Part shown: positions 37,235 through 54,953 of the stretch, piece after piece
Layout: each line of letters begins with the position of its first letter
How positions within the stretch are numbered: the stretch's first letter is position 1
Origin: Actinomadura barringtoniae
Lineage (GTDB): Bacteria > Actinomycetota > Actinomycetes > Streptosporangiales > Streptosporangiaceae
NCBI RefSeq assembly: GCF_017573505.1
Contig: NZ_JAGEOJ010000014.1
Span: forward strand, 248,001-312,000
Length of the DNA stretch: 64,000 nt
Direction of reading: 5' to 3'
The notes under the pieces: model-generated
Told to the model about the DNA's origin: nothing
Seen by the model: the letters and a program-made list of their open reading frames with translations, nothing else
The model's database searches: none
Program-made: the position numbers and the translations under genes

Positions 37235-37298
37235 CCTCAAGGCGCCTCAGTGGCCTCAAAGCGCCTCAGAGGCCTCAAGGGGCCTCAAGGGGTCTCAG
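37235..37298. repeat. seven 9-10-bp CCTCAA/G units at the dehydrogenase 3' end
   Basis: YCTCAR recurs at 37235, 37245, 37254, 37264, 37273, 37283 and 37293. On the reverse strand each unit reads YTGAGR, and the last at 37293-37298 holds the dehydrogenase stop codon. It is a stop-spanning repeat. Confidence 0.88.
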
Positions 37299-38230: not shown

Positions 38231-38252
38231 CACGCGGCGAATGTAGCAGGGC

Positions 38253-38287
38253 ATCCGTATCGTGGGCTAGCATTCCGTATGGCGGAA
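38253..38287. promoter_or_regulatory. IclR-box-like operator, copy 2 (dehydrogenase/iclR promoter)
   Basis: TTCC (38273-38276), 7 bases, GGAA (38284-38287), with a degenerate half ATCC-N7-GGGC at 38253-38267 preceding it by the same 5-base spacing. It lies between the divergent dehydrogenase and iclR genes, where an autoregulating IclR protein would bind. Confidence 0.65.
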
Positions 38288-38306
38288 AGATCTGAGAGAG
38301 GGCCTC

Positions 38307-39077: not shown

Positions 39078-39130
39078 GTGCCGGGCCGGACGGTTGACGC
39101 GCCCGGCGATCTGCTGGTTGCCTGTAATGC

Positions 39131-39154
39131 GGAAATACGTTCCGCTATCCGGAA
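39131..39154. promoter_or_regulatory. IclR-box-like operator, copy 3 (FAD oxidase promoter)
   Basis: GGAA (39131-39134), 5 bases, TTCC (39140-39143), 7 bases, GGAA (39151-39154): exactly the spacing seen at 29020-29043. It lies 35 bp upstream of the preferred oxidase start. Confidence 0.65.
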
Positions 39155-39189
39155 TATTGTGGGCGTTTCTAGCTGATACGAAGGTGGAT

Positions 39190-40551
39190 GTGAGCCAGCC
39201 CCCCGTTGAGACGCTGGGCGCACTGCTCCCGGCAGGCCGCCTGATCACCGACCCCGACGCCATGGACGCCTACGCCCGCGACCAGACCTACGCGGCCCCG
39301 GGCAAGCCCGCCGCGGTCGTGCTCGCCCGCGACACCGCCGACGTCGTCACGGTCATGAAGTGGGCGCGGCAGCACCTCGTCCCGGTCGTACCGCGCGGCG
39401 CCGGCACGGGCCTGGCCGGGGGAGCGACCGCCACCGACGGCTGCGTCGTGCTGTCCCTGGCGAGGATGACCGCGATCCAGGAGATCGTGCCGCAGGACCA
39501 GCTCGCCGTGGTCGAGCCCGGCGTGATCACCGCCGACCTGGACCGGGCGGCGCGCGAGCACGGGCTGATGTACGCGCCCGACCCGTCCAGCCACGAGATC
39601 TCCACGATCGGCGGCAACCTGGCGACCAACGCGGGCGGGCTGCGCTGTGTGAAGTACGGCGTGACCCGCGACTCCGCGCTCGGCCTGGAGGTCGTGCTCG
39701 CGGGCGGCCGGGTGATCCGCACCGGCGGGCGCACGGTCAAGGGCGTCACCGGCTACGACCTGACCGGCCTGTTCGTCGGGTCCGAGGGCACGCTGGGCGT
39801 GATCACCGCCGCGACCGTGCGGCTGCGCCCGGCGCCCGCCGATGCCCCGGTGACCGTGCTGGCCTCGTTCGGGTCGCTCACGGCGGCCGGCGCCGCCGCG
39901 GCCGCGATCATGGGCGCCGGGCTGCGGCCCAGCCTGCTGGAGCTGATCGACAGGGCGACGCTGCGCGCCATCGACGACTATCGCCGGATCGACCTCGACG
40001 CCGACACCGCCGCCGTGATCATCGCGCAGACCGACGGGCCCGAGTGCCCCGCCGCCGAGCTCGTCCGGCACTGCGAGGAGGCGGGCGCGGAGTTCGCGGC
40101 GGCCTCTACCGACGAGGCCGAGGCCGCCGCGCTGCTCGAGGTGCGGCGGATGGCCTATCCCGCCGCCGAACGCCTCGGGAACTGCCTGGTCGAGGACGTG
40201 TGCGTGCCCCGCTCCCGGCTGCCCGAGATGATGGAACGGATCGAACGCGCCGCCGCCCGGCACGACGTGCGGGTCATGACCGTCGCGCACGCCGGGGACG
40301 GCAACCTGCACCCGCTGTTCGTCTTCGACCGCGGCCTGACCGGCCCGCCGCCGCCCGTCCAGGCCGCCGCCGACGAGATCTTCACCGCCGCGATCGAGCT
40401 GGGCGGCACGCTCACCGGCGAGCACGGCGTCGGCGTGCTGAAGCGGCCCTGGCTGGACGGCGAGTTCGACCCCGACACCCTGGCCGTCCATCGCCAGATC
40501 AAGCAGGCCCTCGATCCCGACGGCCTGCTCAATCCGGGAAAGGCGATCTAG
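39190..40551 (+). CDS. FAD-binding 2-hydroxyacid oxidase (GlcD-like)
   Basis: GlcD-type flavoproteins oxidise glycolate, D-lactate or related 2-hydroxy acids. The start is GTG 39190 (SQPPVETLGALLPAG) with GAAGG six bases upstream; a longer frame from 39094 would cover the operator. The protein of about 453 residues has the PCMH FAD-binding motif PRGAGTGLAGGA, then TIGGNLATNAGGLRCVKYG, VKGVTGYDLTGLFVGSEGTL, and the C-terminal AHAGDGNLHP and GEHGVG metal/substrate sites. It would remove a short hydroxyacid end product of the island's pathway. It converges on the PHB esterase gene. Confidence 0.92.
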   Translation: MSQPPVETLGALLPAGRLITDPDAMDAYARDQTYAAPGKPAAVVLARDTADVVTVMKWARQHLVPVVPRGAGTGLAGGATATDGCVVLSLARMTAIQEIVPQDQLAVVEPGVITADLDRAAREHGLMYAPDPSSHEISTIGGNLATNAGGLRCVKYGVTRDSALGLEVVLAGGRVIRTGGRTVKGVTGYDLTGLFVGSEGTLGVITAATVRLRPAPADAPVTVLASFGSLTAAGAAAAAIMGAGLRPSLLELIDRATLRAIDDYRRIDLDADTAAVIIAQTDGPECPAAELVRHCEEAGAEFAAASTDEAEAAALLEVRRMAYPAAERLGNCLVEDVCVPRSRLPEMMERIERAAARHDVRVMTVAHAGDGNLHPLFVFDRGLTGPPPPVQAAADEIFTAAIELGGTLTGEHGVGVLKRPWLDGEFDPDTLAVHRQIKQALDPDGLLNPGKAI

Positions 40552-40560
40552 GTCACGGGT

Positions 40561-40594
40561 CGGCCCGGCGCGCGGGTCAGCCCAGCGCGCGGGT
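40561..40594. repeat. 17-bp tandem repeat duplicating the PHB esterase 3' end
   Basis: Reverse-strand ACCCGCGCGCTGGGCTG (40578-40594, the last codons and part of the stop) is followed directly by ACCCGCGCGCCGGGCCG (40561-40577) and a partial third unit. This is another stop-spanning repeat. Confidence 0.85.
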
Positions 40595-41557
40595 CATGGC
40601 CATGACGGCCTCGATCTGCTTGCCGCCGTGCTGGGCGTAGCGGGTGTCGCCACCGTAGCCCCACCAGTTCCAGCAGCCGTTCGGGTTGCCCGTCGCGGTG
40701 GTGGCCTGCGGGTAGAGGACGATCGTGTCGTTGGTGTCGGCGTACTCGTTCAGGTAGGCCTTCTTGATGAACGCGTCGCCGACCGTTCCGTAGTACTGCT
40801 GGCAGCCGTGCAGCGCGACGATCAGGCGGCAGGCCGTGCCGGACGCGCAGGTGCTCGGCACGTAGACGAAGCCGCGCGAGTCCATGCTGATCGCGCTCGC
40901 GCTGCCGCCGGGGGCGTAGGCGTTCTGGTCGAACTGCACGAGCTGCCCGCCGGGCGTCGAGGCGGGCGCGTTGACCGACCCGAAGAGCTTGCCGAGCATC
41001 TCGCGCTCCGGGTCGTTGCCGCACTTGTTGATGTACGGGGACGCGGTGAGCGAGCAGGAGTTGGGCCCGAGCGGGCTCACCCACGCGTGCCCGGCCGCGG
41101 TCGTCTTGTTATAGACGACGGAGGCGCCGAGGTCGCTGTAGTAGGTGGCGAGGTCGTCGTTGACCGCCTGCTTCACGGTGTTGTCGCTGGTGCCGTGGTA
41201 GAGGTACACCGGGTCGCCCGAGAGGTTGGAGACCGGGTCGACGGTCCCGGCCGTGGCGCGGTCGCGGGTCTCCTGCTCCAGGTAGGCGGGGGTCTTGCGA
41301 GGCTGGAGAGTGTTCATACAGGCGAGCTGCGCGGTGATTGTCGTGGTGTCACCCTGCGCGCAGTCGTAGGCCCCGGCGGTGAAGATGCCCGCCCCGGCGA
41401 ACGTGCCCGAGTAGGCGACGTGCAGCTGGTTGGCCATGTAGCCGCCAGACGAGACACCCGCGACGTACCGAGTGCTGATGTTGTACGAGGGCAGGGTGGC
41501 CGCGGCGGGGGCGGTCAGTTGGCTTGCGGTGAGCAGGGACGCGAGCAGGGACTTCAT
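40577..41557 (-). CDS. exported PHB depolymerase-like esterase
   Basis: The start at ATG 41557 overlaps the upstream stop (ATGA). The 326-residue protein opens MKSLLASLLTASQLTAPAAA, a signal peptide. The catalytic residues are Ser in GVSSGGYMANQLH (about 42), Asp in LYHGTSDNTV and His in AAGHAWVSP. The later part has VALHGCQQYYG and NPNGCWNWWGY, typical of the PHB depolymerase/esterase family. It would hydrolyse extracellular poly(3-hydroxybutyrate) to oligomers. Neighbours encode oligomer hydrolysis, CoA transfer and 3-hydroxybutyrate oxidation, which supports the role. Several cysteines suggest disulfides. Confidence 0.85.
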   Translation of the reverse strand: MKSLLASLLTASQLTAPAAATLPSYNISTRYVAGVSSGGYMANQLHVAYSGTFAGAGIFTAGAYDCAQGDTTTITAQLACMNTLQPRKTPAYLEQETRDRATAGTVDPVSNLSGDPVYLYHGTSDNTVKQAVNDDLATYYSDLGASVVYNKTTAAGHAWVSPLGPNSCSLTASPYINKCGNDPEREMLGKLFGSVNAPASTPGGQLVQFDQNAYAPGGSASAISMDSRGFVYVPSTCASGTACRLIVALHGCQQYYGTVGDAFIKKAYLNEYADTNDTIVLYPQATTATGNPNGCWNWWGYGGDTRYAQHGGKQIEAVMAMTRALG

Positions 41558-42972
41558 CCGGTGCCTCCGAGGGAGCATTCGTTGGCGAGGTCGCCCGAGG
41601 CCGGGCGGGGGAGTGTTTTGTCCGGTGGCGGGGTCTTGCCCTTGGTGGTCCAGCCTTCGAGCGCGGTGAAGGCGGTGCGGAAGCAGGGCAGGATCGGCCG
41701 AAGCTTGTCGGGGTAGGTGCCGTAGAGGCCGTCGACGTGGTTGCCTCCCTCAATGCGGTAGTAGCGGTGCAGGCGATCGCGGCCCTGGGCCTTGATGAGG
41801 CGGTCGTAGACGTCGGAGTCCTGCGAGATGGGCAGCAGGGAGTCGAGCGTGCCGTGCAGGGTGATGAGGGGACGGCCGATGCGCCCGTTCAGCGAGATCC
41901 TCCGTACGGCCTTGTGCACGGAGTGGGGGCGGGACGCGTAGTCGTAGGCGGTTTCCGCGCCCGTATAGGCCGGGTCGACCTCTTGGCGGTAGATGCGCTG
42001 GGTGAGGTCCCAGTAGACCTTGTAGTGGTAGTCCCACAGGAACGACGAGGCGGCGGGGTAACCGGCGGCCTCGATCTCGGCAGTGTCGCCCTTGGTGTAG
42101 CCGTCCAGGGCCTTCGGCAGGAACGTGAAGAGGTTGGGCCCGTCCTCCCGCCAGAGCGTGCCCTCCCAGTCCACGCCGCCGGTGTAGAGCTCCGGGTTGT
42201 GCTCCAGCTGCCAACGGACCAGATAACCGCCGTTGGAGACGCCCGCCGCGTACGTGTGGCGTGGGGTGCGGCCGTAGTAGCGGGCGACCGTGCGTTTGGC
42301 CGCCTTGGTCAGCTGGGTGACGCGGTCGTTCCACTCGGCCAGGGCGTCCCCGGGCTTCCTGCCGTCCTCATAGAACGTGGCGCCGACGTTGCCCTTGTCG
42401 GTCGCCGCGAACGCATAGCCCTTGGCCAGCACCCAGTCGGAGATGACGAAGTCGTTGGCGTACTGGCCCCGGACGCCCGGCGACCCGGCCACGACCAGGC
42501 CGCCGTTCCAGTGCTCGGGCAGCCGGATGACGAACTGGGAGTCGTGGTTCCAGCCGTGCGCGGTGTTGAACGTCGAGGTGTCGGGGAAGTAGCCGTCGAT
42601 CTGCGTGCCGGGCACGCCGCTCGGGTTGCGCGCACCGGGCGGGTGCAGCCCGGCCCAGTCGCCGGGGATCGTGTGGCCGGACGCGACCGTGCCGGCCGTG
42701 GTGAGGTCGTCCAGGCACGCGGTGACCTGCTTCTCCGCGCCCGGAACGGCGACCGGCGAGCAGGCCTTGGCCTGGGCGGACGCGGAGGGGACGGCCGAGG
42801 CGGAAGCGGCCGAGGCCGAGCCGACGGCCGAGGCGGAGGCGGCCGAGGCGGAGGCGGAGGCGGAGGCGGAGGCGGCCGAGGCGGAGGGGGCGGCCTGGGC
42901 GGAGGGGGCTGCCACGAGGGACGCGCCGATCGCGAGTCCGGCGGCGGCCACGAGGGGGTGGGTGGCTCTCAT
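41554..42972 (-). CDS. exported alpha/beta hydrolase, oligomer-hydrolase/tannase-like
   Basis: The 472-residue protein (start ATG 42972) has a signal peptide (MRATHPLVAAAGLAIGAS to AQA). A Ser-Ala low-complexity stretch of about 40 residues follows, then a catalytic domain. The nucleophile is Ser in YAAGVSNGGYLVRW, an acidic residue follows in LHGTLDSLLP and the His is in EGGNHVDGLYG. Related proteins are annotated as tannase/feruloyl-esterase-like or as 3-hydroxybutyrate oligomer hydrolases. Its operon (CoA-transferase, PHB depolymerase) favours action on hydroxybutyrate oligomers. The Ser-Ala linker may space the enzyme from the wall. Confidence 0.78.
   Translation of the reverse strand: MRATHPLVAAAGLAIGASLVAAPSAQAAPSASAASASASASASAASASAVGSASAASASAVPSASAQAKACSPVAVPGAEKQVTACLDDLTTAGTVASGHTIPGDWAGLHPPGARNPSGVPGTQIDGYFPDTSTFNTAHGWNHDSQFVIRLPEHWNGGLVVAGSPGVRGQYANDFVISDWVLAKGYAFAATDKGNVGATFYEDGRKPGDALAEWNDRVTQLTKAAKRTVARYYGRTPRHTYAAGVSNGGYLVRWQLEHNPELYTGGVDWEGTLWREDGPNLFTFLPKALDGYTKGDTAEIEAAGYPAASSFLWDYHYKVYWDLTQRIYRQEVDPAYTGAETAYDYASRPHSVHKAVRRISLNGRIGRPLITLHGTLDSLLPISQDSDVYDRLIKAQGRDRLHRYYRIEGGNHVDGLYGTYPDKLRPILPCFRTAFTALEGWTTKGKTPPPDKTLPRPASGDLANECSLGGTG
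42781..42900. repeat. hexanucleotide repeats encoding the Ser-Ala linker
   Basis: GAGGCG and near copies repeat in frame and encode alternating Ser and Ala in the exported hydrolase. The six-base unit equals two codons, so length changes by slippage preserve the frame. Confidence 0.85.
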
Positions 42973-43035
42973 GGGCCCATCGTGATGATGCGCTGTGACC
43001 CGGACCACGTGCCGCCGCCCCACATTGCGCCGCGG

Positions 43036-43683
43036 TCAGGTGTCGGCGATCACCAGGGGCGCGGCGGTGGCCTCGCGCACCTCGTCCGCGGTGACGCCGG
43101 GGGCGGTCTCGCGCAGCATGAGACCGTCCGCCGTCACGTCGATGACGGCCAGGTCGGTGATGATCCGGTCGACCACGCCGCGCCCGGTCAGCGGCAGCGT
43201 GCAGGACCGCACGATCTTGGACGAGCCGTCGCGGGCGCGGTGCTCCATCAGCGCGATGACGCGGCGGGCGCCGTGCACCAGGTCCATCGCGCCGCCCATC
43301 CCCTTGATCATCTTGCCGGGGATGGTCCAGTTGGCGAGGTCGCCCGACGCCGACACCTGCATGCCGCCGAGGATCGCCGCGTCCAGCCGTCCGCCTCGGA
43401 TGACGCCGAACGAGAGCGCCGAGTCGAAGTAGGACGCGCCCGGCAGGACCGTCACGGTCTCCTTGCCCGCGTTGATGAGGTCGGGGTCCACCTCGTCCGC
43501 GCGCGGGTAGGGGCCGACGCCGAGGATCCCGTTCTCGCTGTGCAGCACCACCTCGACGCCCGGCGGCAGGTAGTTGGGGACCAGCGTCGGCAGCCCGATG
43601 CCGAGGTTGACGTACGAGCCGTCGGTGAGCTCGCGGGCGGCGCGGGCCGCCATCTGCTCGCGGGTGAGCGGTGTGGGGGTCAT
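43036..43683 (-). CDS. scoB: 3-oxoacid CoA-transferase subunit B
   Basis: The 215-residue protein has the active-site Glu in the SENG motif (HSENGILG, Glu50), [11 protein letters not shown] and the C-terminal EVREATAAP. It moves CoA between succinyl-CoA and acetoacetate (or another 3-oxoacid). The ATG overlaps the subunit A stop (ATGA). A 63-bp gap precedes the exported hydrolase gene. The alternative is 3-oxoadipate CoA-transferase; the 3-hydroxybutyrate neighbours favour acetoacetate. Confidence 0.9.
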
Positions 43684-44363
43684 CGGCTGGTCGTCTCCTT
43701 CTCGATCCTCTTCTCGGCGAGGCCGGCCGGCACGACGCGGTGCACGAAGATCCCGGGCAGGTGGATCTCGTCGGGGGCGAAGTCGGTGACCTCCTCGACC
43801 TGCGCGATCGTGATCCGTCCCGCCATCGCGGCGAGCGGGTTGAAGTTGCGGGCGGAGGCGTGGAACGCCAGGTTCCCGAACCGGTCGCCGCGGGCCGCGT
43901 GCACCAGCGCGAAGTCGGTGGTGATCGCCTCCTCCAGCACGTACGTGCGCCCGTCGAAGTCGCGCGTCTCCCGGCCGCCCGCGATCGGGGTGCCGACCCC
44001 CGCCGGGGTGTAGAACGCCGGGATCCCGCAGCCGCCCGCGCGCAGCCGTTCGGCGAGCGTGCCCTGCGGCACCAGCTCGACCTCCAGCTCGCCGCCCATG
44101 TACTGCCGGGCGAACTCCTTGTTCTCGCCGACGTACGACGCGGTCATGTGCGCGATGCGGCCCTCGGCCAGCAGCACGCCGAGACCCCAGTCGTCGACGC
44201 CGCAGTTGTTGGACACCACGCGCAGCCCGGTCGTGCCCCGGTCCAGCAGCGCAGTGATCACGTTCATCGGAATGCCGCACAGCCCGAACCCGCCGACGGC
44301 CACCGACGCCCCGTCCGGGACGTCGGCCACCGCCGCGGCGGCCGAGCTCACCACCTTGTCCAT
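43680..44363 (-). CDS. scoA: 3-oxoacid CoA-transferase subunit A
   Basis: The 227-residue protein (start ATG 44363, [20 protein letters not shown]) has the CoA-binding pattern [28 protein letters not shown] and [22 protein letters not shown], then [17 protein letters not shown]. It forms the active enzyme with subunit B. It is the first gene of the reverse arm of the proposed hydroxybutyrate locus and faces the ABC importer operon across a palindrome-rich 225-bp gap. Confidence 0.92.
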
Positions 44364-44410
44364 GCCGGTGACCGTACGGAGATGGTCTTCGCGGTTCCTA
44401 CATGGCCGAT

Positions 44411-44510
44411 CCACATATCCGGACCAGGGGAAATGTGGAAACGCGCCTGACCTGTGAGTGATGTGGATCACATCACTATCGGCCGCCCCAATTGTGTGGC
44501 GGCCCCACAT
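44411..44510. promoter_or_regulatory. divergent control region with palindrome and four ATGTGG hexamers
   Basis: GTGATGTG-GAT-CACATCAC is a perfect 8-bp-arm palindrome at 44458-44476. ATGTGG or its complement occurs at 44411, 44433, 44461 and 44505, and TGTGG/CCACA also pair at 44495-44509. The region serves both the CoA-transferase arm and the importer arm. Repeated operator binding by one regulator is inferred. Confidence 0.6.
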
Positions 44511-44588
44511 GGTTCCCCTTACCGGGCCGACTTAGTGTCCTGCGTCACACACCCCGCAAACCCACGCACACCCCCCCGAGGAGGCCGC

Positions 44589-45347
44589 ATGGACGGTCCT
44601 GTTCTGCGTGCGCAGGGCCTGGTCAAGGAGTTCCGCGGGTTCCGCGCCGTGGACGGCGTGGACCTCGACGTCGCCGACGGCAGCGTGCACGCGCTCGTCG
44701 GGCCGAACGGAGCAGGCAAGACCACCCTGTTCAACCTGCTCACCGGCTTCCTCAAGCCGAGCGCGGGCCGGATCAGGCTGCACGAGCGCGACCTCACCGG
44801 CCGCCGCCCCGAGCACGTGGCGCGGCTCGGCGTGGCCCGCTCGTTCCAGATCACCAGCCTGTTCGCGCAGCTCACCCCGCGCGAGCACCTGCAGCTGGCG
44901 CTCGCGGGCGGCACCGGCGTGACCTGGCGGTTCTGGCGCTCGGACCGGTCGCTCGAACGGTTCACCGAGCGCGCCGCACAGTTGCTGGAGGAGGTCGGCC
45001 TCACCGCTCAAGCGGACGTACCGGCGGGCACTCTCTCCTACGGCCGCAAGCGCGCCCTGGAGCTGGCGCTCGCCCTCGCGCTCGATCCCAAGGTGCTGCT
45101 CCTGGACGAGCCGACCGCCGGGATGGGCGTCGAGGACATCGACCGGACCGTCGACCTGGTCCACCGCGTGCGGCGCGGCCGGACCGTCGTGATGGTCGAG
45201 CACAACATGAGCGTCGTCTCCCGGCTCGCGGACCGGGTCACGGTCCTGCAGAGCGGCCGCGTACTGGCCGAGGGCCCGTACGAGGAGATCCGCGACGACC
45301 CGCGCGTCGTCGCCGCCTACCTGGGAGACGCGAATGCCGAGCACTGA
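44589..45347 (+). CDS. branched-chain-type ABC transporter ATPase (LivG-like)
   Basis: The 252-residue protein (ATG 44589 behind GAGG) has Walker A GPNGAGKTTLF, the LivG-type insertion TGRRPEHVARLGVARSFQI, the signature LSYGRKRALELALAL (LSYG in place of LSGG), Walker B VLLLDEPTAGM and the switch His in VMVEHNM. It powers one half of a HAAT-family importer. Its stop is 14 bp inside the next gene. A longer upstream frame would run through the operator and is rejected. Confidence 0.94.
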   Translation: MDGPVLRAQGLVKEFRGFRAVDGVDLDVADGSVHALVGPNGAGKTTLFNLLTGFLKPSAGRIRLHERDLTGRRPEHVARLGVARSFQITSLFAQLTPREHLQLALAGGTGVTWRFWRSDRSLERFTERAAQLLEEVGLTAQADVPAGTLSYGRKRALELALALALDPKVLLLDEPTAGMGVEDIDRTVDLVHRVRRGRTVVMVEHNMSVVSRLADRVTVLQSGRVLAEGPYEEIRDDPRVVAAYLGDANAEH

Positions 45348-46047
45348 GCCGATGCTGCGCATCGAGGGCCTGTCGGCCTGGTACGGCGAGGCGCAGGCCC
45401 TCCGCTCCGTGGACATCGAGGTGCAGGAAGGCGAGATCGTCACGCTCGTCGGCCGGAACGGAGCCGGGAAGACCACGCTCCTGCGCTGCGTCACGGGTCT
45501 GCACATTGGACGGAACGAAGGGCGTGTTTCGTTCCTCTCTCAAGATGTGACCAAACAGGCCGTGCACAAACGAACACGGCGCGGGCTCGGCTACGTGCCG
45601 GACGACCGCGGCATCTACGCCACGCTCTCGGTCGAGGAGAACCTCACGCTCCCGCCGCGCGTCGGCCCCGAGCCCTGGTCGCTGGACCGGGTGTACGAGA
45701 CGTTCCCCCGCCTGAAGGAGCGGCGGCGCTTCCCCGGCACCAAGCTCTCGGGCGGTGAGCAGCAGATGCTCGCGCTCGCCCGCGTGCTGCGCATGGGCGC
45801 GCGCCTGCTGCTCTGCGACGAGCCCACCGAGGGCCTGTCCCCGCTGATCGTCCAGCAGATCGGCGACATCCTCCGCGAGGTCAAGCGGCAGGGGGTGACC
45901 GTCCTGCTCATCGAGCAGAACGTGCACTTCGCCGCCACCGTCGCCGACCGGCACTACCTGCTCGCCGAAGGGCGCGTCGTCGAGTCCCTCGACAACGACG
46001 CGATGAAGGCCCGCGAGGGCGAGCTTCTCCAGCACCTGGGCATTTAG
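45334..46047 (+). CDS. branched-chain-type ABC transporter ATPase (LivF-like)
   Basis: The 237-residue protein has Walker A GRNGAGKTTLL, LGYVPDDRGIYATLSVEENL typical of LivF, signature LSGGEQQMLALAR, Walker B LLLCDEPTEGLS and switch His replaced in VLLIEQNVHFA (the LivF pattern). It pairs with the LivG-like ATPase upstream, with a 14-bp gene overlap. The binding protein gene follows 15 bp downstream after TTAAGGAGTAAG. Confidence 0.95.
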   Translation: MPSTEPMLRIEGLSAWYGEAQALRSVDIEVQEGEIVTLVGRNGAGKTTLLRCVTGLHIGRNEGRVSFLSQDVTKQAVHKRTRRGLGYVPDDRGIYATLSVEENLTLPPRVGPEPWSLDRVYETFPRLKERRRFPGTKLSGGEQQMLALARVLRMGARLLLCDEPTEGLSPLIVQQIGDILREVKRQGVTVLLIEQNVHFAATVADRHYLLAEGRVVESLDNDAMKAREGELLQHLGI

Positions 46048-46062
46048 TTAAGGAGTAAGACG

Positions 46063-47313
46063 ATGACAGCTCGTTCGCGTACGGCCGCACTGGCCGCGGT
46101 GGGGGCGATCCTGGCGAGCGCGGCGGCCGGCTGCAACGGCGGCCCCGGCGGCGGTGGCGGCAAGATCTCCGACGGCAAGATCGTGCTCGCCGTCCTGAAC
46201 GACCAGTCGGCGACCTACGCCGACCTGTCCGGCAAGAACAGCATCGAGGCGGTCAGGATGGCCGTCGCCGACTACAAGGCCAAGTACGGCGACAAGGCCG
46301 TCGCCAAGAAGATCGACGTGGTCTCGGCCGACCACCAGAACAAGCCCGACATCGCCAACTCCAAGGCGCAGGAGCTCTACGACCGGCAGAAGGCCGACAT
46401 CATCCTGGACGTGCCGACCTCGTCGGCGGCGCTCGCGGTCGCCAACATCGCCAAGGCCAAGAAGAAGCTCTTCATGGACATCGGCGCCGCGACCACCGCG
46501 CTGGAGGGCGCGAACTGCAACAAGTACACCTTCCACTACGGCTACAACACCTACATGCTGGCGCACGGCACCGGCGACACGGTGACCAAGGACGGCGCCA
46601 AGAACTGGTACGTCGTCTACCCGGACTACGCGTTCGGGCAGGACATGAACAAGAGCTTCAACACCGCCGTCACGGGCGCGGGCGGCAAGGTCGTGAAGGC
46701 CGACCCGGCGCCGTTCCCGAACGACAACTTCTCCACGTTCATGCTCAAGGCCCCGGGCCTCAGCCCGAAGCCGCAGGTGCTCGGCACCATGCAGGCGGGC
46801 GGCGACCTGGTCAACTTCGTGAAGCAGTACAACGAGTACAAGCTGCGCGACAAGGGCATCGGGCTGGCGGTCGGGCTGATGTTCCTCACCGACATCCACT
46901 CGCTCGGCTCGGACGCGCTCGCCGGGACCAAGTTCACCGACGCCTGGTATTGGAACGCCGACCCGCAGAACCGCGCCTGGGCCGACAAGTTCATGGCCAA
47001 GACCGGCAAGCGCCCGACGTTCGCGCACGCCGCCAACTACTCCGCGGCCCTGCAGTACCTGGACGCGGTGCAGCGCGGCGGCACCGACAAGTCCGACGAC
47101 GTGGTGAAGCAGCTCGAGGGCCACACCTTCCAGGACGTCTTCGCCAAGAACGCCTCCATCCGCGCCGCCGACCACCTGCTGCTGCACGACGTCGCGCTCG
47201 CTCAGGTCAAGCCGTCCAGTGAGGTCAAGGAGCCCTGGGACTACGAGAAGGTCCTGAAGACCATCCCGGCGAACCAGGCGTTCCAGCAGCCCGACCCGTC
47301 CTGCAAGCTCTAG
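46063..47313 (+). CDS. branched-chain-type ABC transporter binding lipoprotein
   Basis: The 416-residue protein has a lipoprotein signal with lipobox ASAAAGC (Cys near 25) followed by a Gly-rich tether. The periplasmic-binding type 1 fold shows IVLAVLNDQSATYADLSGKN, DIILDVPTSSAALAVANIAK, WYVVYPDYAFGQDMNKSF and FAHAANYSAALQYLDAV. HAAT binding proteins take amino acids, amides, urea or small carboxylates. The gene lies inside an operon with 3-hydroxybutyrate dehydrogenase, so a hydroxybutyrate ligand is proposed. The ligand cannot be read from sequence alone. Confidence 0.93.
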   Translation: MTARSRTAALAAVGAILASAAAGCNGGPGGGGGKISDGKIVLAVLNDQSATYADLSGKNSIEAVRMAVADYKAKYGDKAVAKKIDVVSADHQNKPDIANSKAQELYDRQKADIILDVPTSSAALAVANIAKAKKKLFMDIGAATTALEGANCNKYTFHYGYNTYMLAHGTGDTVTKDGAKNWYVVYPDYAFGQDMNKSFNTAVTGAGGKVVKADPAPFPNDNFSTFMLKAPGLSPKPQVLGTMQAGGDLVNFVKQYNEYKLRDKGIGLAVGLMFLTDIHSLGSDALAGTKFTDAWYWNADPQNRAWADKFMAKTGKRPTFAHAANYSAALQYLDAVQRGGTDKSDDVVKQLEGHTFQDVFAKNASIRAADHLLLHDVALAQVKPSSEVKEPWDYEKVLKTIPANQAFQQPDPSCKL

Positions 47314-47326
47314 GGAGGCCAGGCAC

Positions 47327-48190
47327 ATGCTCGAACAGGCCTTCAACGGCCTGGTGGGCGGGGCGTTCTTCGCCCTGCTCGCCCTGGGCCTCTCGGTCAT
47401 CTTCGGGATGCTCGGCGTGGTCAACTTCGCCCACGGGGCGTTCTACATGCTCGGCGCGTTCGGCGCCTTCGTGCTGCTCGACTCGTTCGGCGTGAACTTC
47501 TGGGTCGCGCTCGTCGCGGTCCCGATCGTGCTGGGCGTGGCCGGGATCGTGCTGGAACGGCTGTTCATCCGGCGGCTGGCGCCGCTGGACCCGCTCTACA
47601 ACTTCCTGTTCACCTTCGGCCTCACGCTGATCCTTCAGGACCTGGTGAAGAGCAAGTACGGCGTGCAGTCGCAGCCTTATCCGCGGCCGTCGGCCCTGGA
47701 CGGCTCGATCGACCTTGGCCTCTTCAGCTACCCGACGTACCAGGTGTTCGTGCTGGCCCTCTCGGTCGTCGTCTGCGTGCTGGTGTGGGTGGCGCTCACC
47801 CGGACCCGCGTCGGGATGATCGTCCGGGCGTCGACCGAGAAGCCCGAGCTCACCCGGGCGCTCGGCATCGACGTCGGCCGCTGGGTCACGCCGGTGTTCG
47901 GCTTCGGGATCGCGCTGGCGGGCCTGGCCGGAGTGCTCGCCGCCCCGATGCGCGCGGTCAACCCGCTGATGGGCTCCGATCTCATCATCACCGTGTTCGC
48001 GGTGGTCGTGATCGGCGGCCTCGGTTCGATCTTCGGGTCGGTGACGGCGGGCTTCGCGATCGGGCTGGTGACGGCGCTCGGCAACTACTACGTGCCGTCG
48101 CTGTCGCAGACGCTGGTGTTCATCGTGATGGCGGCCGTGCTGCTGTGGCGGCCGGCCGGGCTGTTCGGCCGCGAGGAGGCGATGTCGTGA
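47327..48190 (+). CDS. branched-chain-type ABC permease (LivH-like)
   Basis: The 287-residue protein is highly hydrophobic with about eight helices. It opens LEQAFNGLVGGAFFALLALG, has VNFAHGAFYMLGAFGA and the cytoplasmic coupling loop ALTRTRVGMIVRASTEKPEL typical of LivH. It pairs with the LivM-like permease; stop and start overlap as GTGA. Confidence 0.94.
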   Translation: MLEQAFNGLVGGAFFALLALGLSVIFGMLGVVNFAHGAFYMLGAFGAFVLLDSFGVNFWVALVAVPIVLGVAGIVLERLFIRRLAPLDPLYNFLFTFGLTLILQDLVKSKYGVQSQPYPRPSALDGSIDLGLFSYPTYQVFVLALSVVVCVLVWVALTRTRVGMIVRASTEKPELTRALGIDVGRWVTPVFGFGIALAGLAGVLAAPMRAVNPLMGSDLIITVFAVVVIGGLGSIFGSVTAGFAIGLVTALGNYYVPSLSQTLVFIVMAAVLLWRPAGLFGREEAMS

Positions 48191-49191
48191 TCTTGTCCAG
48201 GCTGGCCGCAAGGCCCGCGCTGCTCGCGGTGGGCCTCGTCGTGGCGCTCGGGCTGCCGTGGTTCGTCTATCCGCCGGTGGCGATGGACATGCTGTGCTGG
48301 GCGCTGTTCGCCGCCGCGCTCGACCTGCTGCTCGGCTACACCGGGCTGCTGTCGTTCGGGCACGCCGCGTTCTGGGGCGGGTCGGCGTACGCCGCGGGGC
48401 TGATGGCGGTGCACTGGGGCGTCCCGTTCCCGGTCGCCGTGCTCGGCGGCGCGCTGTTCGCGGCGCTGCTGGCGGTGCCGATCGGCTACCTGTCGGTGCG
48501 GCTGCGCGGCATCTACTTCGCGATGGTCACGCTGGCGTTCGCGCAGATGGTCTACTTCGTCGCCAACCAGTGGCGGGACGTGACGGGCGGGGAGAACGGC
48601 CTGCAGGGCGTGCCGCGCGAGTTCTTCGGCGTGGACCTGTCCGACCCGTTCTTCTTCTACTACGCGGGCCTGCCGTTCATCCTGCTCGGCATGCTGGCGG
48701 TCTGGAGGGTCGTACGGTCGCCGTTCGGCCGCGTGCTGATGTCCATCCGCGACAACCCGGCGCGTGCGCAGGCACTCGGCTACCCGGTCGAGCGCTACAA
48801 GCTGCTGGCGTTCGTGCTGTCGGCGGGGCTGTCCGGCCTCGCGGGCGGGCTGTACGCGATCAGCCACGGCTTCGCGTCCCTGCACGAGGTCTACTGGACG
48901 ACGTCCGGGCAGGCCGTGATGGCGGTCGTCCTCGGCGGCATCGGCACGCTGTGGGGCGGCGCGATCGGCGCCGGGCTCATCGTCGAGCTGAACGACTACC
49001 TGGCCACCGCCGGGTTCACCGAGACGGGCCTGGTCACCGGCGGGATCTTCGTGGTCATCGTGCTGGTCTTCCGGCGCGGCATCTGGGGAACGGCCCGCCA
49101 CCTGCTCGCGTCCCGCCGTACGCGGGCCGCGGGCGCCGGCGCCGAGAAGGAATCCGAGCCGTCCACCCGTCAGGAGGCCGTCGCCCGATGA
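48187..49191 (+). CDS. branched-chain-type ABC permease (LivM-like)
   Basis: The 334-residue protein has about nine helices, LLLGYTGLLSFGHAAFWGG, GIYFAMVTLAFAQMVYF and the coupling loop RSPFGRVLMSIRDNPARAQA of LivM permeases. The C-terminal tail is charged. GTG start at 48187. Its stop overlaps the ATG of the 3-hydroxybutyrate dehydrogenase gene (ATGA), which ties the importer to hydroxybutyrate metabolism. Confidence 0.94.
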   Translation: MILSRLAARPALLAVGLVVALGLPWFVYPPVAMDMLCWALFAAALDLLLGYTGLLSFGHAAFWGGSAYAAGLMAVHWGVPFPVAVLGGALFAALLAVPIGYLSVRLRGIYFAMVTLAFAQMVYFVANQWRDVTGGENGLQGVPREFFGVDLSDPFFFYYAGLPFILLGMLAVWRVVRSPFGRVLMSIRDNPARAQALGYPVERYKLLAFVLSAGLSGLAGGLYAISHGFASLHEVYWTTSGQAVMAVVLGGIGTLWGGAIGAGLIVELNDYLATAGFTETGLVTGGIFVVIVLVFRRGIWGTARHLLASRRTRAAGAGAEKESEPSTRQEAVAR

Positions 49192-49973
49192 CCGCTACGA
49201 GCACGGCCCGCCCATCGGAGGGCCTGGACCTGTCCGGGCGGCGGGCCCTGGTGACCGGCGGCGCGAGCGGGATCGGCCGGGCCTGCGCCCGCCGCCTCGC
49301 CGCCGCCGGCGCCGAGGTCACCATCGTGGACCTGCGGCCCGACGTGGCCCGCCGGGCCGCCGACGAGATCGGCGCGGCGGGCGCGCTCGCCGCCGATCTG
49401 ACCGACATGGCGGCGGTGGACGCGCTGGACTGCGACGGCATCGACATCCTGGTCAACAACGCCGGGTTCCAGCACGTCGCGCCGGTGACCGAGTTCCCGC
49501 CCGACGCCTTCGCCGAGATCCTCCGGATCATGGTGGAGACCCCGTTCCGGCTGGGGCGGCGTGCGCTGCCGGGCATGTACGCGCGGGGATGGGGCCGGAT
49601 CGTCAACATCTCGTCGATCCACGGCCTGCGGGCCTCGCCGTACAAGGCCGCCTATGTGGCCGCCAAGCATGCCCTGGAGGGCCTGTCCAAGGTGGTGGCG
49701 CTGGAGGGTGCGGCGCACGGCGTGACCTCCAACTGCGTCAACCCCGCCTATGTCCGCACGCCGCTGGTGGAGTCCCAGGTGACCGACCAGGCCAGGGCGC
49801 ACGGCATGGCCGAGGACGAGGTCCTGGACAAGATCATGCTGGCGCGGGCGGCGATCCGGCGGCTGATCGAGCCCGACGAGGTGGCCGAGATGGTGGCCTA
49901 CCTGTGCTCCCCGCACGCCTCCATGGTCACCGGCGCCTCGTTCGCCATAGACGGCGGATGGACGGCGCACTGA
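49188..49973 (+). CDS. bdhA: 3-hydroxybutyrate dehydrogenase (SDR)
   Basis: The 261-residue SDR oxidises (R)-3-hydroxybutyrate to acetoacetate with NAD. It has TGGASGIGRACARRL, NNAGFQHVAPVTEFPPD (a sequence typical of 3-hydroxybutyrate dehydrogenases), catalytic Ser in NISSIHG and Tyr-x-x-x-Lys in YVAAK, and CVNPAYVRTPLVE. Its ATG overlaps the LivM-type permease stop. Acetoacetate made here would be activated by the CoA-transferase encoded on the divergent arm. No thiolase gene is in the window. Confidence 0.92.
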   Translation: MTATSTARPSEGLDLSGRRALVTGGASGIGRACARRLAAAGAEVTIVDLRPDVARRAADEIGAAGALAADLTDMAAVDALDCDGIDILVNNAGFQHVAPVTEFPPDAFAEILRIMVETPFRLGRRALPGMYARGWGRIVNISSIHGLRASPYKAAYVAAKHALEGLSKVVALEGAAHGVTSNCVNPAYVRTPLVESQVTDQARAHGMAEDEVLDKIMLARAAIRRLIEPDEVAEMVAYLCSPHASMVTGASFAIDGGWTAH

Positions 49974-49986
49974 CAATGGGTGGGTC

Positions 49987-51897
49987 ATGACCTGCACAAT
50001 CTTCCTCGAACTGCTCGCCCGGGAGGCCTCCCCGGTCGAGTTCGAGGCACCCCTGCTGGAGGCCCGCGCCGCCGGCGCGCCCCCAGAAGAGCTGGCCGAG
50101 CTCGAACGCACCAAGCTCGCGGCCCTGCGGGTGCGGACGCTCCTGGAGCGCCGCGCCCGCCGGGAGGCCGAGCTGTCGGCGCTGTTCGACACCGCCGGCG
50201 ACCTGGCGGGCCTGCGCGACGTCGACGCCGTCCTGGAGGCGATCGTGCGCCGCGCGCGCCGCCTCCTGCACGCCGACATCTCGTACATGACGCTGCACGA
50301 CGACGAGCGCGGCGACACCTACATGCGGGTCACCGACGGGTCGGTGTCGGCGGCGTTCCGGGCGCTGCGGCTGCCCCCGGGCGCCGGGCTGGGCGGCCTC
50401 GTGGCCCAGACCGCGACCCCCTACACCAGCGCCGACTACCCCGCCGACGAGCGGTTCCGCCACATGCGCCACATCGACTCCGCCGTCGGCGAAGAGGGCC
50501 TGGTGTCGATCCTGGGCGTTCCCATGCGCCTGGGCACCCGCGTCATCGGTGTGCTGATGGCCGCCAACCGCAGCGAACGCCCGTTCGCCCAGGAGGAGGT
50601 GACCCTACTGGCTTCCTTGGCGGCCCACGCCGCAGTGGCCATCGACAACGCGCGGCTGCTGGAGGAGACCCGGGCGGCGCTGGACGAGCTCAGTGCGGCG
50701 AGCGAGCTGATCAAGGCCCGTTCCGCCGCCGTGGAACGCGCCGCGCAGGCCCACGACCGCATGACGGCGCTGGTCGTGCGCGGCGGGGGCGTGGAGGACG
50801 TCGCCGCCGTGGTGGTCGACGTGCTCGGCGGGGCGCTGGCCGTCCGGGACTCGGGCGACCGGCGGCTCGCCGCGGTCGGCGACATCGGCGACGCGGACGA
50901 GGCCGAGATCGCCGCGGCCGCCGAGGCGTCCCGATCGCTGGGCCGTACGGTGCAGCGCGGCGACCTGTGGGTGACCTCCATGGCCGCCGGGGCCGAAGCG
51001 CTGGGCATCCTCGTCTGGCGCGGCGACGACCCCGACCAGCGCATCCTGGAACGCGCCGCCCTCGTAACAGCCCTCCTCCTGCTCTTCCGCCGCAGTGTCG
51101 CCGACGCCGAAGGCCGCGTACGGGGCGAACTCCTGGACGACCTGCTGACAGGACGCGTCACCGACGCGACCGCCTTGCAGGACCGGGCCAAGCTCATCGG
51201 CGTCGATCTGGACACGCCCCACGTCCTGGTCGTGGCCCGGCACGGGGGAGACCGTCAGCGCGCCGCCTTCTGGGCCACCTCCCATGCCGCCGTACGGCAC
51301 GGCCTGGCAGCGGCCAAGGGCGACGAGGTGATCCTCCTTCTACCGGGCTCCACACCCGGTCCCGAAGCCCGCGCAGCTGCCCGCGAACTGGGCGCCTGCC
51401 TGGGGGAGAAGGCCACCGCCGGAGCCGCAGGCCCGCTCACCGTCCTCCAACCCCCGCCCACCACAGTCAATGGACGAGCTTCGCTCGACAGCCCTCCCGC
51501 AGGGGTGGCCGATGCCTACCAGGAGGCCGAACGCTGCGCGGACTCCCTGCTCTCCCTGGGACGCCAAGGCGATGGGGCCAGCTCCGACGAGCTGGGCTTC
51601 GTAGGCCTGCTCATCGGGGAGGGCCGGGACGTTCCGGCCTTCCTGGAGTCGGCGTTGGGCCCGGTCCTGGCGTACGACAAACGCCGGGGCACGGCCCTCG
51701 TCCAGACCCTGGAGGTCTACTTCAGCTCAGGAGGCAGCCTCTCCCGCGCCGCCGAACGCCTCCACATCCACGTCAACACCGTCACTCAGCGCCTGGACCG
51801 CGTCTCCCAACTCCTCGGCAACGACTGGCAGTCCCCGTACCGCGCCCTGGAAATCCAGCTGGCCCTGCGCCTGCACCACCTCCGCACGGTGGTCTAG
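49987..51897 (+). CDS. GAF-domain PucR/CdaR-type regulator
   Basis: The 636-residue protein has a helical N-terminus (LERRARREAELSALF) and a GAF domain at about 70-235 (LHADISYMTLHDDERGDTYM, SILGVPMRLGTRVIGVLMAA). A central coiled-coil and CdaR-like region follow, and a C-terminal PucR helix-turn-helix (GGSLSRAAERLHIHVNTVTQ, RLDRVSQLLG). It follows the dehydrogenase gene by 13 bp and is the only regulator in the hydroxybutyrate locus. It likely senses a small acid through the GAF domain and acts at the palindrome region. Confidence 0.9.
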   Translation: MTCTIFLELLAREASPVEFEAPLLEARAAGAPPEELAELERTKLAALRVRTLLERRARREAELSALFDTAGDLAGLRDVDAVLEAIVRRARRLLHADISYMTLHDDERGDTYMRVTDGSVSAAFRALRLPPGAGLGGLVAQTATPYTSADYPADERFRHMRHIDSAVGEEGLVSILGVPMRLGTRVIGVLMAANRSERPFAQEEVTLLASLAAHAAVAIDNARLLEETRAALDELSAASELIKARSAAVERAAQAHDRMTALVVRGGGVEDVAAVVVDVLGGALAVRDSGDRRLAAVGDIGDADEAEIAAAAEASRSLGRTVQRGDLWVTSMAAGAEALGILVWRGDDPDQRILERAALVTALLLLFRRSVADAEGRVRGELLDDLLTGRVTDATALQDRAKLIGVDLDTPHVLVVARHGGDRQRAAFWATSHAAVRHGLAAAKGDEVILLLPGSTPGPEARAAARELGACLGEKATAGAAGPLTVLQPPPTTVNGRASLDSPPAGVADAYQEAERCADSLLSLGRQGDGASSDELGFVGLLIGEGRDVPAFLESALGPVLAYDKRRGTALVQTLEVYFSSGGSLSRAAERLHIHVNTVTQRLDRVSQLLGNDWQSPYRALEIQLALRLHHLRTVV

Positions 51898-52739: not shown

Positions 52740-52861
52740 TGTGGAGGCGCTGGCGGAGGAATGGGGATGCGAGCCCGCGGAGGCGCTCGGGGGGGAAGTA
52801 CGTGTGGGCCCGGCTCGGGCCGAAGCCGAAGGATGAGCGAGTGGTCATGGGCGGCTGCTGA
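52720..52861 (+). pseudogene. remnant of an anti-sigma-type ATPase (HATPase) C-terminus
   Basis: The + strand reads SGRGLNIVEALAEEWGCEP and then, after a one-base shift at a run of seven G (52789-52795), GGKYVWARLGPKPK. This is the C-terminal signature of the RsbW-like ATPases that accompany XRE and DUF397 genes. The ATP-binding N-terminal part is absent and the frame is broken, so it is a fragment. Confidence 0.5.
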
Positions 52862-54953
52862 GGCGGAAGGCGAACAGGTCGGCGCCGTGCAGGGCCACCA
52901 GGAGCGGGCCGACGTTGGTGAGGATCCATGGCTCGGTGTCGCCCACCGCGACGTCGCGGTAGCTCCAGACCAGGCGTCCGGTGGTCGCGTCCCAGCCGTA
53001 GAGGCCCGGGCCCGTGGAGCCTGCCACGGCCGTGAGGACGAGGCCGCCCAGGGCGAGCAGAGGCGCCTTGTCGTCCCCTGGGGTGCTCGCCGACCAGAGC
53101 CGGCGGCCGGTCCGGGCGTCGAGCGCGAGCAGGGTCCGGTTGTCGAGGGTGTAGGCGAACCTGCCGCTCGCGAGGAACGTCCGGTAGTTCGTGCTGGGCA
53201 CGGCCGGTACGTGGGACCACTTCTCCTGGCCGGTGGCCAGGTCCAGCGCGTGCAGCGTGGAACCGGCGACGTAGGCCATGCCGTTCGCGACCGTGATCTC
53301 GCCGTCCTGGATGTTCGCCGTCCAGAGCGTGCGGCCGGTGGACGCCGAGAGGGCGTCGAGCGCGCTGCCGGACTGGTTGTTGAAGATCACGTCCCCGCTG
53401 CCCGGCATGGTCATGTCCGAGTTGGCGTACTGGCGGGTCCAGCGGGGCTCGCCGGTGGCGGTGGCGAGCGCGAAGAGGGTGCCGAACGTCTTTCCGTCGT
53501 CGCCCTTGCCGGACTTGGCGATGAGGCTGCCGCCCTGCACTCCCTGGAGCTCGGTCCCCGGAGGAGCCCGGTGGGCCCACAACTGTGCGCCGCTGCGGGC
53601 GTCGTAACCGATGACCGTCCCCGTGCCGTCGACCACGCCGATGACGGTCCCGTCCTTGGGGCCGCGGATGCCGCGCAGGTCGTAGCCGACCGGCAGCGGC
53701 GCCCGCCAGCGCTGGGCGCGGGTGGCGGGATCCAGCGCGACCAGGGCCGTGCTCTGCGGCACGTACATCAGGGCCGAGTCGGTGGTGCCGTCCAGCTTGG
53801 CCGACCACAGCTCGCGGCCGGTGGCGGTGTCGTAGGCCGTGGACTTGGTGAGGTAGGCGTTGACGACGACCGCGTGCTCGAAGGCCAGAGGCGACAGGAA
53901 GTCGCCGCCGGTGGGCAGCCTGGCCTTCCAGCGGAGAGCGGGCGTGGGGAGGCCGGGCTCGCCGTCGTCCGTCCCTGCCAGCGCCATGGCCGTGCCGCCG
54001 CCGACCGCCGCGAGACCGGCGACCGCGGCCCCGCCCAGCAGGAGCCGCCGCCGGGTCCTGGCGCGGGAGATGGCCTTCAGGTCCAGGACGAGGGTGTGCT
54101 CGCGGTCGTCGAGCTCGCGGCCGATGGCGTCGGGCAGCCAGCCGTTCGCCAGTGGCTGGGCGGCGAGGAGCTGGGGGAGCAGCGCGACACGCGGGCGATC
54201 GGCGGGGTCGCGGCTCAGGCAGGCGGCGACCATCGCGGACAGGGCTCGCGGCACGCCGTCCAGGTCGGGCGGCTCGTGCAGGGTCCGGTGGATCACGGTG
54301 TGGACCGGGCCGAGGCCGAACGGCGGGCGGCCGGTGGCGGCGTAGGCCAGCACGGCGCCGAAGGCGAAGACATCGGCGGCAGAGGTGAGTTCCTCGCCGC
54401 GGATCTGCTCGGGCGGCATGTAGCCGGGCGTGCCCATGAACTGGCCCTCGGAGGTGAGCCTCGTCCCGTCGGCGGCCCTGCTGATGCCGAAGTCGATGAC
54501 GCGCGGGCCGTCCTTGGCCAGCAGGATGTTCGCCGGTTTGAGGTCGCGATGCAGCAGTCCGTTCTGCTGGATGGCGATCAAGGCCTCGCCCAGGCCTGCG
54601 CCGAGCGTGCGCAGGAGCGGCTCGGGCATCGGGCCGTGTCGCGCGACGGCGTCCTTGAGGTTGAGGCCGTTCACGTACGCCGTCGCGAGCCAGGGGACCG
54701 TGCCGTCCGGGTCGGCGTCCACCACCGGGCTGGTGAACGCGCCGCTGACCCTGCGCGCGGCCTCCACCTCGGCGCGGAACCGGGCCCGGAAGGTGTGGTC
54801 GTCCGCCAGTTCCGGGCGTACCACCTTGATCGCCACCGCCCGGCCCGCGGGCGACGCGCCGAGGTAGACGCGGCCCATGCCGCCCTCGCCCAGGCGGCTC
54901 AGCAGCCGGTAGCGGCCCACATGACCGGGGTCGTCCGGCTCCAGCGCGGCCAT
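52845..54953 (-). CDS. Ser/Thr protein kinase with PQQ-like beta-propeller
   Basis: The 702-residue protein has an N-terminal kinase domain with the Gly loop LGEGGMGRVYLG, Lys in AIKVVRPE, catalytic HRDLKPANILL and VIDFGIS, and the activation segment GTPGYMPPEQI. A membrane helix (LLLGGAAVAGLAAVGGGTA) at about 315-335 precedes the outer part. That part is a PQQ-like propeller of repeated blades (TGRELWSAK, AQRWRAPL, GAQLWAHR, GEPRWTRQ, GRTLWTA, GRRLWSAS). The propeller probably senses an extracellular ligand or cell-wall state. It overlaps the upstream kinase gene by one base (TGATG). Confidence 0.95.
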   Translation of the reverse strand: MAALEPDDPGHVGRYRLLSRLGEGGMGRVYLGASPAGRAVAIKVVRPELADDHTFRARFRAEVEAARRVSGAFTSPVVDADPDGTVPWLATAYVNGLNLKDAVARHGPMPEPLLRTLGAGLGEALIAIQQNGLLHRDLKPANILLAKDGPRVIDFGISRAADGTRLTSEGQFMGTPGYMPPEQIRGEELTSAADVFAFGAVLAYAATGRPPFGLGPVHTVIHRTLHEPPDLDGVPRALSAMVAACLSRDPADRPRVALLPQLLAAQPLANGWLPDAIGRELDDREHTLVLDLKAISRARTRRRLLLGGAAVAGLAAVGGGTAMALAGTDDGEPGLPTPALRWKARLPTGGDFLSPLAFEHAVVVNAYLTKSTAYDTATGRELWSAKLDGTTDSALMYVPQSTALVALDPATRAQRWRAPLPVGYDLRGIRGPKDGTVIGVVDGTGTVIGYDARSGAQLWAHRAPPGTELQGVQGGSLIAKSGKGDDGKTFGTLFALATATGEPRWTRQYANSDMTMPGSGDVIFNNQSGSALDALSASTGRTLWTANIQDGEITVANGMAYVAGSTLHALDLATGQEKWSHVPAVPSTNYRTFLASGRFAYTLDNRTLLALDARTGRRLWSASTPGDDKAPLLALGGLVLTAVAGSTGPGLYGWDATTGRLVWSYRDVAVGDTEPWILTNVGPLLVALHGADLFAFRLSSRP

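Follow-up and report, generated by a model that had tools for sequence, protein, structure and literature searches.

Importer and dehydrogenase

What does an ATP-binding cassette (ABC) importer of the HAAT family carry when its genes are joined in an operon with a gene for 3-hydroxybutyrate dehydrogenase (BdhA)? The question is raised by positions 40577–51897 of the window, which is the whole 64,000 nt stretch of Actinomadura barringtoniae DNA analyzed here (contig NZ_JAGEOJ010000014.1); all positions refer to it, and L-numbers and G-numbers denote fetched loci and genomes. HAAT-type importers are usually labelled amino-acid importers, and other HAAT cargoes are known as well. The segment consists of two back-to-back divergent operons, scoA-scoB-OH-phaZ reading leftward and livG-livF-SBP-livH-livM-bdhA-pucR reading rightward, where SBP is the substrate-binding protein gene and OH encodes an oligomer-hydrolase-like protein. 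The arrangement exceeds chance. It is quite probable that the locus scavenges external poly(3-hydroxybutyrate) (PHB) and its oligomers and that the HAAT importer takes up 3-hydroxybutyrate. Import of 3-hydroxybutyrate or short oligomers had been proposed in an earlier sequence-only reading of this DNA; import of the BdhA substrate gains support from synteny, from the exchange of the importer with symporters, from loss of the acidic residue of LivJ, from residues L55/F274 of the binding protein and from the lack of a PhaC_N match. The gene positions of that reading are all correct, and profile models support the families.

The rightward operon begins with a livG-type ATPase gene (44589..45347, + strand; PF00005, PF12399) and a livF-type ATPase gene (45334..46047, +; PF00005). 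These are followed by the gene for the substrate-binding lipoprotein, the proposed 3-hydroxybutyrate receptor (46063..47313, +; PF13458, 281.6 bits), and by livH-type (47327..48190, +) and livM-type (48187..49191, +) permease genes, both PF02653. Two Liv-type ATPases, two BPD_transp_2 permeases and one Peripla_BP_6 (PF13458-type) SBP in a single operon make up the HAAT gene set (TC 3.A.1.4). The next gene, bdhA (49188..49973, +), scores 326.5 bits with TIGR01963 against a cut-off of 307.05, and the solved chains closest to its product are D-3-hydroxybutyrate dehydrogenases. The ATGA overlap reported earlier for the permease-bdhA junction is present in the sequence at livM-bdhA. The last gene (49987..51897, +) encodes a GAF/PucR-type regulator with PF01590/PF13185 and PF13556, a PucR-type helix-turn-helix.

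Neighborhoods of the importer

Importer loci were taken from a search of genome contigs, and the counts that follow come from the best 80 of 592 confirmed; a full-flank locus has 7 kb or more to either side of the importer. Where the SBP is 66–100% identical to that of the window there are 27 full-flank loci, with BdhA in 20, PucR in 22, OH in 17, PhaZ in 5 and ScoA in 2 (L024 and L112, both within this count, are one and the same record). BdhA is present in 3 of 9 loci at 60–66% identity and in 2 of 4 at 45–60%, and at 39–45%, mostly in Rhizobium and Stutzerimonas, it is present in 0 of 32 full-flank loci. For the sequence-only reading, homologous importers found routinely away from bdhA would have spoken against its proposal. 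They are so placed at 39–45% identity and in part at 60–66%, but not at 66% or above. Followed across genomes, as that reading had suggested, the importer-bdhA pairing is kept in close relatives and recurs in two phyla. One of the seven close loci without BdhA, L032, has bdhA on the same contig (L153) at a distance of about 13 kb. Three more of the seven, L105–L107, are second copies of the importer. L051, L054 and L060 show no BdhA at the importer, and bdhA-pucR is found elsewhere in the genome.

Gene maps show the five importer genes staying together, with OH, where present, mostly divergent from livG and with BdhA-PucR on one side of the importer in either orientation. The BdhA-importer pairing recurs in Micromonosporaceae and in Knoellia/Ornithinimicrobium; importers of the Micromonospora and Knoellia types showed no esterase (OH) nearby. 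When the neighbors were clustered without supervision, the only non-transporter partners to exceed 8 of 40 loci were BdhA, PucR and OH (the 21-locus BdhA cluster includes three short-chain dehydrogenases of 35% identity that are not BdhA). The nearest relative in the genome search, A. rudentiformis, has an SBP about 90% identical. Actinomadura alba (L153) gives the only fetched importer locus besides the window where PhaZ, OH, ScoAB, the importer and BdhA-PucR are found together; there, about 7.5 kb separate bdhA from phaZ, and 13 kb separate it from the SBP gene. The core of the arrangement consists of importer, BdhA and PucR, with OH as a frequent addition, and PhaZ and ScoAB are optional. 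The term complete, given earlier to this PHB-to-acetoacetyl-CoA locus, fits the window and does not describe a general arrangement.

The linkage is also seen from the side of the dehydrogenase. All 13 Actinomadura-group genomes have BdhA over the cut-off (14 matches), and in 11 of the 13 it lies 2–8 kb from a window-type importer. The exceptions are G032, where BdhA is at a contig start behind a livM fragment (L117), and G016, where it is on a different contig. The same 13 genomes hold 172 PF13458 proteins in total, and among the matches listed no other one of these is within 10 kb of a BdhA that scores above the cut-off.

Outside of the phylum, three Deinococcus plasmids share the livGF-SBP-livHM set, with SBPs 48–50% identical. 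In two of the three, an annotated 3-hydroxybutyrate dehydrogenase is directly upstream (TIGR01963 scores of 314.9 and 306.7 bits, to be read against the cut-off of 307.05), and in the third bdhA is elsewhere on the plasmid. In a tree of 60 SBP rows, BdhA-linked rows are found in all main branches that could be judged within a 52-row clade, and eight state changes are needed. The long Deinococcus and Rhizobium-side branches meet in this tree and their join is unsure.

Some further arrangements were seen in these loci. On Deinococcus plasmids (L120, L121, L125, L126) a further HAAT set and a large BTAD or AAA regulator are found upstream of bdhA, and in L120 and L121 bdhA is situated between two HAAT systems. 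In Thermus oshimai (L129) bdhA comes directly after a gene for a LivF-like ATPase, and an IS200/IS605 TnpB gene lies just upstream. In Rhizobium and Sinorhizobium (L122, L123; importers 44–45% identical) a GMC oxidoreductase comes after the importer, as does, in L122, a 3-hydroxyisobutyrate dehydrogenase.

Transporters beside BdhA

A phylum survey covered 396 genomes, of which 55, the window's genome included, have TIGR01963 over the cut-off. Besides that of the window, 56 listed places were fetched (one just under the cut-off) and 55 gave a mapped BdhA. Within 5 kb of BdhA in these 55 loci there is a metabolite/H+ symporter in 28, PucR in 16, OH in 8 and Sco in 3. A complete HAAT importer of another type is present in 4 and both transporter types together in 0. 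Two control sets, 40 loci with window-type importers and 40 with distant relatives, showed no such symporter nearby. That the transporters exclude each other beside BdhA is most readily explained if they share a cargo, the substrate of BdhA, which suggests that each of them carries it.

Among the transporters beside actinobacterial bdhA, the TIGR00883-type symporter is the most frequent (L155–L210; L130, L132) and is a candidate 3-hydroxybutyrate carrier in its own right, the commoner candidate in the phylum. Nonomuraea shows the order bdhA, pucR, symporter, an open reading frame that appears hydrolase-like by eye, and OH; in Tsukamurella a symporter of this type precedes bdhA. Their TIGR00883 scores, 430 and 399 bits, are under the cut-off of 443, and the symporter of L200 passes with 447.6. 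L200 carries scoA-scoB, a PhaZ-like open reading frame (37% identical), OH, bdhA, the symporter and pucR, i.e. the set of the window with the importer exchanged. A 702-codon frame in L182 (8224–10329, +) joins a symporter match that lacks the N-terminus to a complete BdhA; it is either a fusion or a flawed frame, stands outside of the count of 55 and would add one to the symporter side.

The four other-type HAAT importers beside bdhA are in L163, L164, L202 and L206, with scoAB in two of the four. Their SBPs are distantly similar to that of the window (79–91 bits) and also do not have the LivJ acid. Recruitment of a HAAT importer beside bdhA has thus probably happened more than once.

The binding-protein pocket

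In LivJ of E. coli, E226 is the acid that we take to bind the amino group of the ligand. The corresponding position in the window SBP is Leu268, and Leu occupies it in 50 of 50 close rows and 38 of 40 distant rows of a MAFFT alignment. In a smaller alignment the E226 column is shifted by two residues and is still non-acidic. The acid expected for an amino-acid ligand is therefore missing, which bears on the cargo and not on HAAT membership. The pocket positions are taken from MAFFT alignments because the hhalign match of the SBP family to LivJ/LivK is weak (probability 6%). The nearest solved chains to the SBP are 3i09 and 3n0w.

Columns 55, 107, 158, 256 and 274 are fixed in the 28 BdhA-linked rows, with one exception allowed, and these states are absent from a clade associated with tannases. 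L55 and F274 are present in 28 of 28 BdhA-linked rows, and 55 and 274 are changed in a second BdhA-less clade as well. Residue 55 corresponds to the position of Tyr18 in LivJ. In Plantactinospora endophytica a tannase-linked importer has A55/L274, and a second SBP (L150, 15200–16720, − strand), about 5 kb from bdhA-pucR and apparently with no permeases of its own, has L55/F274. This second SBP is one fresh case where the L55/F274 rule held. Of four Micrococcales copies with no adjoining BdhA, all show F274 and three show L55.

Secreted hydrolases and the source of PHB

The leftward operon ends with phaZ (40577..41557, − strand), a type-2 PHB depolymerase that is putatively secreted. Its score with NF050059, the model for extracellular type-2 short-chain-length polyhydroxyalkanoate (PHA) depolymerases, is 342.4 bits against a cut-off of 280. 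Many extracellular depolymerases carry a separate PHB-binding domain; none is present in PhaZ, where the catalytic model covers residues 33–331 of 333. OH (41554..42972, −) is a putatively secreted alpha/beta-hydrolase and a chimera by profile, with Tannase PF07519 (53.3 bits) in the N-terminal half and a slightly subthreshold match to 3HBOH PF10605 near the C-terminal end. PF10605 is above its gathering score in 8 of 8 scanned OH orthologs. The Ser/Asp/His motif residues S255, D386 and H421 are invariant in 24 sequences. A structure model of OH is poor (mean predicted local distance difference test of 57.3), so that its nearest folds, feruloyl esterases and MHETase, are a hint only. In 12 loci that lack OH, a search by motif gave no other alpha/beta hydrolase; it is too crude to imply absence.

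The remaining genes of this operon are scoB (43036..43683, −; TIGR02428, 331.7 bits) and scoA (43680..44363, −; TIGR02429, 244.4 bits, match from residue 50). Both scores are above the cut-offs, which identifies the pair as subunits B and A of a 3-oxoacid CoA-transferase. ATGA overlaps are present at scoA-scoB and OH-phaZ too. Likely start corrections place PhaZ at 41557, OH at ATG 42972, ScoA at 44363 and LivG at 44589; the reading frames of the first three are open to 41578, 43023 and 44510, respectively. The export signals of PhaZ and OH and the lipobox of the SBP were judged by eye.

PhaC_N (PF07167, PHA synthase) was not found at E 1e-15 in the 13 Actinomadura-group genomes, the host included; 1 of 14 control genomes, Caulobacter, was positive at the same E-value. 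PHB that is degraded would then come from outside. An intracellular PHB cycle was set aside on the lack of PhaC_N in the 13 genomes and on the exported appearance, by eye, of both hydrolases.

Exported PhaZ and OH would thus cut the polymer and its oligomers to (R)-3-hydroxybutyrate, an activity suggested by their profile families. The lipoprotein would capture the monomer and LivHMGF would import it with ATP, as synteny, transporter exchange and the pocket suggest. BdhA is predicted to convert 3-hydroxybutyrate to acetoacetate and ScoAB to convert this to acetoacetyl-CoA, and the PucR protein, a type that recurs beside BdhA in other genomes, probably senses substrate or product and controls the gene set. 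With both hydrolases exported in appearance, and with the monomer as the substrate of BdhA, monomer is a likelier cargo than oligomer. On this reading a HAAT system would have changed its cargo from amino acids to a hydroxy acid, with acetoacetate as a possible second cargo.

Other cargoes

Several observations weigh against uptake of 3-hydroxybutyrate. In the window the PF10605 score of OH is 25.9 bits, under the gathering score of 27, and the match is limited to the C-terminal end. L55 and F274 were picked post hoc, on the basis of two clades. Neither transporter type is found at 23 of the 55 surveyed BdhA loci, and the importer is patchy, as 17 of 59 relatives searched have it (E 1e-60), all from the same genus. 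A clade of six importers has no BdhA nearby and four of these have full-length tannases; second importer copies in the genus (L105–L107) keep OH or a tannase, not BdhA. In one BdhA search, 4 of 11 genomes had none over the cut-off. Segeticoccus (L050), one of the Micrococcales genomes mentioned above, has an importer with L55/F274, yet no BdhA over the cut-off in its genome, and so speaks against a strict L55/F274-BdhA rule.

The tannase-linked copies would fit an importer of some other acid released by an esterase, e.g. an aromatic or another hydroxy acid, with BdhA a neighbor for another reason. Four importers of one BdhA-less clade and the second copy L106 adjoin full-length tannases, OH itself is tannase-like, and feruloyl esterases and MHETase are the nearest folds to its poor model. 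However, linkage to BdhA holds in all main branches judged and linkage to an esterase does not, the Micromonospora- and Knoellia-type importers being the case in point. The tannase-side clade and the second copies also differ at residues 55 and 274, and symporters take the place of the importer beside BdhA, so this cargo appears unlikely. An importer for acetoacetate, or for various C4–C5 hydroxy and keto acids and not specifically for 3-hydroxybutyrate, is quite unlikely. ScoAB in the operon could use acetoacetate directly, and the sequence does not tell such cargoes from 3-hydroxybutyrate, but the constant partner in the 27 full-flank loci is BdhA and not ScoA. An ordinary branched-chain amino acid importer would agree with the HAAT subunit families; leucine catabolism ends in acetoacetate, which could feed ScoAB. 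The Leu at the E226 position in every close row, recurrent neighbors (BdhA, PucR, OH) that were found without prior choice, and secreted polyester-type hydrolases, which do not fit such a role, make this highly improbable, and a plain branched-chain amino acid importer was set aside on pocket and neighbors. A urea importer was set aside as well, with urea models below cut-off.

Uptake of 3-hydroxybutyrate thus stays the favored reading for the window. More tentatively, the HAAT family seen here could be one tied to secreted esterases, with a cargo that switches with the esterase. L55/F274 with BdhA, often with OH, would mark (R)-3-hydroxybutyrate, and A55 with L or V274 and a true tannase would mark another acid. 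HAAT systems may also have taken on 3-hydroxybutyrate on more than one occasion (the window/Deinococcus type; the unrelated HAAT importers beside bdhA in L163, L164, L202 and L206), in exchange with H+ symporters. Full-length tannase-family enzymes in place of OH are found beside close importer relatives in L052, L056, L058, L059 and L106.

Relation to known systems

The window importer is like E. coli LivJ/LivKHMGF and the urea system UrtABCDE in its five subunits, fold families and gene set. It differs in that its best urea and Liv model scores are below the cut-offs, in the change of LivJ E226 to Leu, and in its linkage to BdhA and secreted esterases. The TIGR00883 symporters share its setting beside bdhA and its proposed cargo, but each is a single-protein secondary carrier and not an ABC system. 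The known route of PHB use consists of an extracellular PHB depolymerase, a 3HB-oligomer hydrolase and the ketone-body steps. The window shares its order of polymer, oligomer, monomer, acetoacetate and acetoacetyl-CoA; it differs in a depolymerase without a separate substrate-binding domain, in an OH that is half tannase-like, and in the importer and regulator that are built in.

Two transporters from other bacteria can be compared, HbtABC of Ruegeria pomeroyi, presumably a TRAP system, and HbuT of Bacillus subtilis, which we take to be a secondary carrier. HbtABC is given as the only confirmed 3-hydroxybutyrate transporter (PMC10130141, 2023). Its cargo, tested by experiment, is the one proposed for the window importer. 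According to an earlier paper (PMC8000602, 2021), a 3-hydroxybutyrate transporter was not known and B. subtilis HbuT was presumed to be one, a role like that proposed here. The portions available of PMC13372988, PMC13373117, PMC11893044 and PMC12542648 name no 3-hydroxybutyrate transporter. A search of the open-access literature turned up neither a HAAT importer nor any other ABC importer with 3-hydroxybutyrate as its assigned cargo; most subscription papers are outside of that search.

Bacterial uptake of the PHB monomer is little known. Should the reading be correct, soil actinomycetes would have a dedicated ABC importer that takes up a bioplastic monomer with energy input, a HAAT clade found in two phyla would lose its incorrect amino-acid label, and marker residues together with a compact gene set would be at hand for finding PHB scavengers.

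The divergent control region and flanking genes

The two operons are separated by a divergent control region (44364..44588) that contains a perfect 19-base palindrome, GTGATGTGGATCACATCAC, at 44458–44476. At three mismatches or fewer 0.15 matches are expected, and the palindrome is partly conserved in the genus. A block, GTGATGTGGNTCAC, is kept at the corresponding place in several Actinomadura loci, and the palindrome/GTGATGTGGNTCAC region is a candidate operator. A second sequence, GTGGTCCGGGTCAC, precedes OH in the window (42995–43008, −) and is found between OH and livG in L025, L029, L034, L040, L111 and L113. It looks as though scoAB entered a divergent promoter that once served OH and livG. 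A sigma-70 promoter scan gave 0 sites, and a terminator scan gave 3 with 2.7 expected.

At 37295–40551, beside the locus, a zinc-type alcohol dehydrogenase, an IclR regulator and an FAD-linked (GlcD-like) oxidase are present, and these are not retained with the importer in relatives. At 52845–57133 (−), 3′ of the regulator, there are two tandem proteins that, judged by eye, combine a Ser/Thr kinase with a pyrroloquinoline quinone (PQQ)-type repeat domain.

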